Part shown: positions 34,919 to 36,436 of the stretch, piece after piece | How the letters are laid out: every line of letters starts with the position of its first letter | Numbering within the stretch: the stretch's first letter is position 1 | Source of the DNA: Acidobacteriota bacterium | GTDB taxonomy: Bacteria > Acidobacteriota > UBA4820 > DSQY01 | DNA length: 36,490 bases | Reading direction: 5' to 3' | NCBI GenBank assembly: GCA_040752915.1 | Contig: JBFMHB010000031.1 | Location: 1-36,490 of the forward strand | Notes under the pieces: model-generated | What the model saw: the letters and a program-made list of their open reading frames with translations, nothing else | What the model was told of the DNA's origin: nothing | The model's database searches: none | Translations under genes and position numbers: made by a program

Positions 34919-35959
34919 CTAGGGCCAGACCGCCCGCCCGCCGGAGCGGACGTTTTCCTTCCAGTGGGTTTCCACCCGATTCACCACGACAGGCGGCAGG
35001 GGAAAATAATGGAGCTCCTCGGCCGCCTTGGCCCCCTCTCGGAGGCACCAGTCGAAATAATCCAGGAGCGCGCGTCCCTTGGAGGGGTTCTTGTGCTCTC
35101 GCGGCAACAGGATGTAGGAGGCCCCCAGGATGGGCCATCCCCCGGGCTCCGGGCTGTCCATGAGGTCCAGTTCCAAACCGGGCCCCAAGGCCCAGTCTTC
35201 GCGATCGAGGGCCGTGCGGATCGAAGCCCGATTGGGTTCGGCGAAGGTGCCTCCGGGGGTTTCGAGGGCGACGACACGCAGTCCGCTCTGCACCGCGTAG
35301 GCGTATTCGACGTACCCCAGGGCGCCGGGGACCTCCCGGACGTACGAGGCCACGCCTTCGTTCCCCTTGGCGGCGATGCCGGACGGCCACTTGACCGAGG
35401 GCCCCACCCCGACGCGGGAAGCGAATCCAGGGTGAATCCTGGAAAGGTATCGCGTAAAGAGCCAGGTCGTACCGGATCCATCGGCCCGGCCCACGATTCC
35501 CACGGCCAGACCGGGAAGGTCCCTTCCCGGGTTGAGGGCCAGAATCCGGGGGTCGTTCCAGCGAACCACTCGGCCGAGGAAAAGATCGGCGAGCAGTTCG
35601 GGGGTGAGCCGCAGGGGGCTCGGGTCCGTGCCCGGGAGGTTCACGACCGGCACGACGACGCCCACGACCATGGGGAACTGGATCAGGCCGAACCGGTTGA
35701 GGTCCTGGGGAGTGAGCGGATATTCGGAGGCGCCGTAGTCGACGGTTCCCCGCTGGACTTGCAGGATGCCCCCGCCCGAGCCGATGGATTGGTAGTTGAA
35801 GGCCGAGCCGGTGAGCGCGCGGTACGCATGGGCCCAGCGGGCGTACAGGGGGTACGGGAAGGTCGCTCCGGCCCCGCTGAAGGTGCCGGAGGCCCAGGCG
35901 GAAAGAAGGACTGCACCCACCAAGACCGCCACGGACCAGGCTGCCCGGCTTCTTCTCAT
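34919..35959 (-). CDS. pstS: periplasmic phosphate-binding protein PstS (Asp56-to-Glu type)
   Basis: 346 aa with signal peptide (about residues 1-24, ending SAWAS). The mature part follows E. coli PstS closely: GAGATFPYPLYARW, SIGSGGG, GRADGSGTTW and WPSGIAAKGNEGVASYV...GALGYVEYAYA. Phosphate ligands equivalent to T10, S38, R135, S139 and T141 are present, but the ligand Asp56 (GASDAPL in E. coli) is Glu79 (GASEYPL; codon GAA). The substitution is seen; its effect is unknown. The ATG at 35959 was chosen for a GGGGAG site 6 bases upstream; an ATG eight codons earlier is weaker. First gene of pstSCAB-phoU. Confidence 0.94.
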   Translation of the reverse strand: MRRSRAAWSVAVLVGAVLLSAWASGTFSGAGATFPYPLYARWAHAYRALTGSAFNYQSIGSGGGILQVQRGTVDYGASEYPLTPQDLNRFGLIQFPMVVGVVVPVVNLPGTDPSPLRLTPELLADLFLGRVVRWNDPRILALNPGRDLPGLAVGIVGRADGSGTTWLFTRYLSRIHPGFASRVGVGPSVKWPSGIAAKGNEGVASYVREVPGALGYVEYAYAVQSGLRVVALETPGGTFAEPNRASIRTALDREDWALGPGLELDLMDSPEPGGWPILGASYILLPREHKNPSKGRALLDYFDWCLREGAKAAEELHYFPLPPVVVNRVETHWKENVRSGGRAVWP

Positions 35960-36010
35960 GAACGGCTCCCCGTGAACTCCCATCCTCGAACGGATCGATT
36001 GCGTTCAGGT

Positions 36011-36058: not shown

Positions 36059-36094
36059 AAAAAAAAACGAAAGCGGGCGCTCGGGGGCGCCCGC
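36059..36094 (-). terminator. intrinsic terminator, distal copy
   Basis: On the minus strand GCGGGCGC pairs with GCGCCCGC (8 bp, 6-nt loop, 36073-36094). It is followed by TTTCG and nine T bases (36059-36067), a textbook terminator. It separates the tRNA region from pstS. Its stem and flanks are repeated at 36306. Confidence 0.85.
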
Positions 36095-36130
36095 CTGTGG
36101 AATCGTTTGGTGCCGAAGGGGGGACTCGAA
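36063..36130. repeat. direct repeat, copy 1 (tRNA 3' end plus terminator)
   Basis: 68 bp nearly identical to 36306-36372; the only difference is one G in the terminator loop. It includes A-run, terminator stem, a 13-bp spacer, CCA end, acceptor 3' strand and T-arm 3' half up to ACTCGAA, after which identity stops abruptly. Copies are about 243 bp apart. Confidence 0.9.
36108..36130 (-). pseudogene. truncated tRNA-Leu 3' fragment
   Basis: 23 bases identical to the 3' end of the tRNA-Leu at 36350: T-loop TTCGAGT, the 3' strand of the T-stem, CTTCGGC acceptor strand, discriminator A and CCA. The 5' half of the T-stem (should be GGGGG) is replaced by CCTCG-type sequence. No matching acceptor 5' strand, D arm or anticodon arm lies at proper spacing upstream on the minus strand. 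Confidence 0.75.
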
Positions 36131-36305
36131 TCGAGGCGGCCTGGAAGCCTCGGGGCCAGAGGCCCCTGCGTTTCAAGGCCGCCTAGGATTCCCGGGGCGG
36201 GTCCCCTTCCTTGTTTTCTACGGTTCGGCGCCAAGCAGTTGGCGCCTCGCCTTGAAAACCACGGAAGCCCCCGCCCTTCTCGTCCCCCCTCGGGAAGGTC
36301 GCCTG
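36131..36305. other. 175-bp structured non-coding segment between the repeats
   Basis: No convincing gene. It contains several inverted repeats: GGCGGCCT (36135-36142) with AGGCCGCC (36176-36183) enclosing GGGGCC-AGA-GGCCCC; GGCGCCAA-GCAG-TTGGCGCC (36227-36246, perfect 8-bp stem); and TTTCAAGGC (36171-36179) with GCCTTGAAA (36249-36257). Transcript status unknown. Confidence 0.5.
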
Positions 36306-36336
36306 AAAAACGAAAGCGGGCGCTCGGGGCGCCCGC
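36306..36336 (-). terminator. intrinsic terminator of tRNA-Leu, proximal copy
   Basis: On the minus strand, 13 nt after the CCA end, GCGGGCGC pairs with GCGCCCGC (8 bp, 5-nt loop, 36316-36336), followed by TTTCGTTTTT (T-run 36306-36310). The shorter T-run makes it somewhat weaker than the copy at 36059. Confidence 0.8.
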
Positions 36337-36372
36337 CTGTGGAATCGTTTGGTGCCGAAGGGGGGACTCGAA
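36306..36372. repeat. direct repeat, copy 2 (tRNA 3' end plus terminator)
   Basis: 67 bp matching 36063-36130 with one single-base length difference. This copy continues into the intact tRNA-Leu gene, so it is probably the original. Confidence 0.9.
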
Positions 36373-36436
36373 CCCCCACGACCGTGAGGCCACTGGACCC
36401 TGAACCCAGCGCGTCTGCCAATTCCGCCACTTCGGC
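36350..36436 (-). tRNA. tRNA-Leu, anticodon CAG
   Basis: 87 nt including encoded CCA. The acceptor stem GCCGAAG pairs with CTTCGGC. D arm GCGGAATTGGCAGACGC. Anticodon stem CTGGG/TCCAG with loop TTCAGGG gives anticodon CAG (reads CUG). A long variable arm (TGGCCTCACGGTCG) as in class II Leu tRNAs follows, then the T arm GGGGG-TTCGAGT-CCCCC. It closely matches E. coli tRNA-Leu(CAG) in architecture. Confidence 0.95.

Follow-up and report, generated by a model that had tools for sequence, protein, structure and literature searches.

Short protein-free repeat units fitted to tRNA and tmRNA genes in a family of Acidobacteriota: a candidate family of mobile cassettes

Near one end of the 36,490-nucleotide stretch of acidobacterial DNA analysed here (the window; GenBank assembly GCA_040752915.1, contig JBFMHB010000031.1), the only tRNA gene present, tRNA-Leu(CAG), stands beside a second copy of its own 3' end, which raises the question of how part of a tRNA gene came to be repeated together with its spacer and terminator. 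Read 5' to 3' on the minus strand, the repeat starts at T54, the first base of the T-loop, and runs through CCA, the spacer and a terminator-like hairpin. The original prediction had described a 67/68-bp duplication that breaks off inside the tRNA, one copy being an intact gene and the other a 3' fragment, and our alignment bears this out: 36063-36130 and 36306-36372 are 98.5% identical over 68 columns, the identity spans T-loop to CCA, spacer and terminator, and its edge within the tRNA falls at T54. It had also judged a terminator in both copies to be unusual, and both copies do contain a terminator-like hairpin together with a T-run. The 175 nt separating the copies are the larger part of a unit that recurs at many tRNA genes, and the locus is composed as follows:

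36350..36436, minus strand: tRNA-Leu(CAG) gene, intact, which hosts the array (ARAGORN; Rfam RF00005, 50.6 bits)
36350..36372, minus strand: first repeat copy, tRNA positions T54-A76 (T-loop to CCA; sequence comparison)
36288..36349, minus strand: spacer S with terminator-like hairpin (36338-36314)
36277..36287, minus strand: rcT, an 11-nt inverted copy of T54-C64
36131..36276, minus strand: core of subfamily I, folded and non-coding, with helices P1, P2 and P3, about 146 nt (model R1, structure)
36108..36130, minus strand: displaced replica of T54-A76, 23/23 against the tRNA (sequence comparison)
36063..36107, minus strand: second copy of spacer S, up to the T-run of its terminator-like hairpin (36096-36071)

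The rcT of the window, GGGGACGAGAA, agrees with the exact inverted copy, GGGGACTCGAA, at 9 of 11 positions, TC being replaced by GA, and a single promoter-like site (36484-36455) lies upstream of the intact gene. Next after the array comes a gene for a solute-binding protein (PBP_like_2, 34919-35983, minus strand); a similar gene, as read by eye, seems to come after tRNA-Leu(CAG) in genome G007.

The unit has a constant order, namely the tRNA 3' half from T54 to CCA, spacer S (often with a terminator), rcT and core, and measures about 215-265 bp, with no protein gene and no integrase inside. When the window stretch was used in a DNA search of its own genome, extra copies appeared on contigs C96 (two, 88%) and C12, while the genomes of relatives yielded many more, most of them behind a tRNA or tmRNA gene and ending in that gene's 3' end. 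Model R1, which describes rcT-core-T and matches the window at 36120-36289 with 185.9 bits, gave 70 matches distributed over all nine genomes of family f1, to which the window genome belongs, and none in the four genomes of sister family f2 of the same order; the cmsearch run over 57 loci returned 76 matches, three of which were omitted (two lying antisense to known units and one at 26.7 bits). Across the phylum sample, under stricter filters by which weak matches are lost, R1 matched in 9 of 297 genomes, all from family f1. The arrangement recurs in nine genomes, and an assembly artefact, one of the possibilities raised initially, is unlikely. A pattern scan of named genomes located 27 stretches, 25 of them in assemblies named 'Acidobacteria bacterium' (BP9.bin43, DBS2-1.bin89, WY3.bin21, WY3.bin59 and WY4.bin4) and two in Xanthomonas; the latter were dismissed as chance matches, lying within an 840-aa open frame read as gyrB and giving no significant model match. 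No match was obtained in the pattern scan of viral contigs, in the plasmids and phages searched or, besides tRNA, at gathering score in Rfam 15, and no description of these units was found in the open-access literature that we searched.

Each unit is fitted to the gene that it follows. We compared 54 full-length copies, from 44 tRNA loci, whose contig also carries the upstream tRNA or tmRNA gene, after excluding copies that were under the length limit, lacked an upstream tRNA on the contig or contained N. The replica matched the 3' end of the upstream gene at 23 of 23 positions in 41 copies, at 22 in five and at 21 in three, the remaining five being decayed (9-19/23), whereas the best non-cognate isotype reached 12-20 of 23. 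Perfect replicas cover 18 tRNA species (Ala, two Arg, Asp, two Glu, two Gly, five Leu, Lys, SeC, two Ser and Tyr) as well as tmRNA. Because the two bases preceding T54 also agree in 44 of the 54 copies each, the boundary of the unit is T54 or at most two bases earlier. The fit extends to the inverted copy, with rcT matching the reverse complement of T54-64 at 11 of 11 or, mostly, 8-10 of 11 positions, often with GA for TC. A model-independent screen of G000, G001 and G004, with a threshold of at least 19/23 within 500 nt, found a 3'-end replica at 26 of 107 tRNA/tmRNA genes, so that most have no unit; the same screen in other families, on a narrower sample of loci fetched for tRNA-Leu, gave 0 of 25 tRNA genes. 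In most tRNA genes without a unit, rcT stays at background score. The displaced copies begin at T54 at many isotypes and at tmRNA, which speaks against the decayed second tRNA-Leu that had been offered as an alternative origin.

Units also form tandem arrays, with up to four that can be read (Lys, G001); these are minimum counts, as Ns mark assembly gaps. The tRNA-proximal unit is intact; the distal end breaks off in the spacer, rcT or core, or consists of a replica whose downstream spacer differs (Lys in G001 and G004, Asp in G003, Leu(CAG) in G007). Distal and proximal spacers agree in several arrays, and the distal Lys copies have no rcT. A tree of 67 cores resolves two well-supported subfamilies (25 and 42 members), which may stand side by side: at Arg(CCG) of G004, subfamily II units are followed by one of subfamily I; at Glu(CTC) of G003, a core I precedes a decayed II; and at Ala(CGC) G001 has core I in the position where G004 has II. 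At Gly(GCC) of G004, an unrelated core III precedes a remnant that begins like I/II. Core III, which occurs at L167, L195, L180 and L201 (Gly(GCC) and Asp(GTC) of G001/G004), is unrelated in sequence to the window core and is missed by model R1, but keeps the rcT-core-T54 architecture. The same T54-S-rcT stretch flanks unrelated cores. Certain core groups follow the tRNA (Lys and Arg in G001/G004, SeC in G002/G005, tmRNA in G002/G005) and others mix tRNA genes; the four subfamily-I cores of G000 (two Arg, one Leu, one Ser) are adjacent in the tree, in a grouping without resolved support.

These arrays bear on whether the units arose by tandem duplication only, through unequal crossing-over between the T-loop and the T-loop-like end of an old core. 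Such a process would produce the agreement of proximal and distal spacers and the distal ends that often stop inside S or core, but it leaves unexplained why one core family stands behind many isotypes and tmRNA, and where the unrelated core III and the mixed cores come from; we consider it very unlikely. The purely local duplication suggested in the original prediction is likewise insufficient, given that the core recurs at many other tRNA genes and that core types differ at one tRNA.

The prediction had also proposed that related genomes be compared for an empty site, and tRNA-Asp provides a clean empty/filled pair in two genomes of one genus, G002 and G005: removing one 254-bp unit makes the loci collinear across the junction. 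Relative to G002, the Asp locus of G005 holds an extra core and a near-exact duplication of T54-S-rcT. The empty site retains an rcT-like stretch, and may represent the original state or a deletion between direct repeats. Presence and absence of units vary among genomes of one genus, and many tRNA types bear units in more than one genus.

Taken at the level of sequence, the anatomy is that of a T-loop boundary, a cognate replica of the tRNA 3' half, a tRNA-specific inverted copy and a covarying fold. From the arrays, the differing cores at one tRNA and the empty/filled pair that differs by one unit, we infer that the units are mobile, which is the best-supported reading of these comparisons. 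We therefore interpret the window feature, with a probability of about 0.55, as a single member of a family of mobile cassettes that are short, encode no protein and are specialised for tRNA/tmRNA genes. Some observations run against mobile cassettes: the distal Lys copies have no rcT, the empty Asp site could stem from a deletion between the repeats, and a spacer shared by differing cores at one tRNA does not follow from simple circle insertion but requires spacer duplication or core exchange. Old vertical inheritance combined with gene conversion would fit as well the cores that group by tRNA and the occurrence of units in more than one genus.

A different reading of the shared flanks is a repeat-duplicating integration, Cas1-like or transposase-like, in which the core would enter between inverted T54-C64 sequences and the stretch from T54 to rcT would be duplicated in the manner of CRISPR repeats. 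The single T54-S-rcT stretch around unrelated cores, the composition of the G005 Asp locus and the intactness of the tRNA-adjacent units all point in this direction. However, a target duplication of roughly 75-130 bp would be required, the background-level rcT in most unit-free tRNA genes and the distal Lys copy without rcT do not agree with it, and Cas1, which a CRISPR or casposon origin would place in the genome, was found in just two of the nine family f1 genomes, with no specific link to the units. We regard this reading as unlikely.

The core folds through base-pairing between rcT and the T54 sequence that follows, and the fold is supported by covariation. For the A1 alignment of 23 copies, RNAalifold followed by hand editing gave a structure of 58 pairs, in which 90.2% of cells are paired and 27 pairs have changed on both sides. 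Its covariation score of 0.299 compares with an average of 0.114 in shuffles, none of 500 reaching 0.299, and with at most 0.112 in slid versions, a lead that is partly built in, as the structure was drawn from the A1 sequences themselves. The z score of the core fold is -5.5 and -6.3 as DNA (either strand) and -5.6 as RNA. G.T pairs do not exceed A.C pairs overall (17 vs 24 cells in all core helices of A1; 77 vs 78 in all pairs of A2), although helices P0/P1/P3 of A2 hold 58 G.T against 31 A.C, an excess that is a hint towards RNA. In tRNA helices of the same genomes G.T reaches 5.7%, a control that yields G.T only, since ARAGORN brackets exclude A.C pairs by construction. On balance we lean, weakly, towards a folded segment that acts as single-stranded DNA rather than RNA.

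The same data bear on another explanation, in which the core is transcribed together with the tRNA and yields a structured RNA with a function, perhaps in the processing of tRNA 3' ends or as a small RNA, that is inherited vertically and kept uniform by gene conversion. The strong covarying fold, the G.T excess in P0/P1/P3, the terminator-like hairpins within the unit, the cores that group by tRNA and the bearing of units by the same tRNA types in several genera would all be expected of such an RNA. They have to be set against the variable presence within one genus, the decay of distal copies, the swapping of core types at one tRNA, the lack of an overall G.T excess and of an Rfam match, and the many tRNA genes without a unit, and we hold this explanation to be rather unlikely.

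Returning to mobile cassettes, a cassette would enter at the T-loop, and the incoming unit would bring or duplicate a matching 3' half, so that the tRNA keeps working; mismatching insertions would presumably be eliminated by selection. A recombinase supplied in trans may recognise the folded rcT-core-T segment, more probably in the form of single-stranded DNA than of RNA. Two chemistries are possible, cassette-circle recombination at T54, which explains arrays with a differing distal spacer, and integration that duplicates T54-rcT, which explains best the different cores with one spacer. The most likely enzyme class is a tyrosine recombinase, because members of this class commonly use tRNA genes, T-loops included (PMC4383910).

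Among specific enzymes, IntI was predicted, from the likeness to integrons, before the search and then found, over cut-off in 6 of 9 family f1 genomes and in none of the four sister-family genomes, but its case was weakened by its spread (73 of 247 phylum genomes) and by G004, which has the most R1 matches (19) and yet no IntI over cut-off. IntI is a candidate, not a finding, and model R1 gives nothing significant at the IntI loci. Near IntI, genome G002 carries a classical integron (L234:12200-16930) with several attC sites (GCCTAAC...GTTAGGC), which are dissimilar to the core. The frequency of IntI in the 247 Acidobacteriota genomes was itself higher than expected. Y1 (HUH) transposases, present in 8 of 9 family f1 and 2 of 4 sister-family genomes, are no better as candidates.

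The original prediction had also pointed to integrase-type recombination at a tRNA 3' end; the instinct was good, but a classical island is not what we find, the units being about 215-265 bp long and without integrase. Tyrosine-integrase islands do occupy unit-bearing tRNA genes, at L238:182-7211 in G001 (about 6.7 kb, in tRNA-Leu(CAA)) and at L239:1-7906 in G004 (about 7.4 kb, between two Ser-type replicas), which would fit units that are the remains of ordinary islands with an integrase in the tRNA genes concerned. The repeat of the G001 island is longer, however, and includes the 5' T-stem strand, the unit lies outside the island, and units fall far below island size and have no integrase, which makes such remnants highly improbable. 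On contig G004:C38, where the tRNA is off the contig, a unit stands ahead of the island and a like core after it, as if the unit had been added later than the island. The candidates for integrase-bearing parents of the short units (G001:C6 and G004:C38) proved to be ordinary islands in the same tRNA genes. Overall, the interpretation given in the original prediction is partly supported.

To our knowledge, the tRNA-targeting elements described so far encode an integrase and target one tRNA gene or a few, and we are aware of none that lacks genes, serves many tRNA types and holds direct and inverted copies fitted to each. The attC sites of integrons have complementary sequences at both ends, as the units have. 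REPIN/RAYT elements are small dispersed non-coding sequences that form hairpins and are mobilised in trans; the units are equally short, non-coding and hairpin-forming, but REPINs are not known to be tied to tRNA genes or to contain a tRNA replica, whereas the units carry one. With tRNA/tmRNA-targeting islands of the Islander kind (PMC4383910), the units share insertion at tRNA/tmRNA genes, a regenerated 3' end, a displaced 3' fragment in the same orientation as the intact tRNA, and tandem arrays. They differ in their length, in having no integrase, in using one family for many tRNA types and in adding an inverted T-arm copy, a folded core and a copied spacer and terminator; Islander drops candidates that are shorter than 2 kb or have no integrase, and neither an integrase gene nor 2 kb of sequence lies between the repeats here. 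The units could be a miniature form of such islands. The ssrA islands of Dehalococcoides (PMC3146451) carry in 16 cases an integration module of six genes, a serine recombinase among them, have a 20-bp repeat and are restricted to tmRNA, in all of which they differ from the units. With integron cassette arrays (PMC8191803), the units would share entry at the first position and a folded single-stranded site recognised by structure. In contrast to integrons, the target is the tRNA T-loop instead of attI, no cassette gene is present, and the fold forms a two-domain junction; RYYYAAC/GTTRRRY ends are absent, A1 copies ending in NTCGAAG or GAGAAG variants and mostly in GTTCGAN at the other end. A possible but doubtful extension is a tRNA-based counterpart of the integron, in which the T-loop of almost any tRNA/tmRNA gene would be the entry site, cassettes with a folded single-stranded DNA site would be added beside the tRNA, each supplying a matching 3' half, and the tRNA genes would make up a dispersed, unbroken platform.

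We rate the novelty as resting on the architecture, one gene-free family in the genes of many tRNA isotypes and of tmRNA with each copy fitted at both ends, and not on the proposed mechanism. If mobile, the units would show how DNA can enter essential genes harmlessly, and would represent a natural T-loop-directed insertion system and a new case of folded single-strand recombination sites. Islander-type searches, which accept candidates only with an integrase and a length of 2 kb or more, would throw such units out.

A second repeat and a shared motif were also seen. The repeat, behind several arrays and tRNA genes (L047, L054, L116, L038 and L194), is a palindrome rich in G+C, for example GAGGGAGGCTCCGCCCCCCTC, with GGCGCT after it. 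A motif close to AAGGACTTACG occurs right behind several different unit-free tRNA genes (L173, L176, L190, L170 and others), and is perhaps a trace of island attachment sites.
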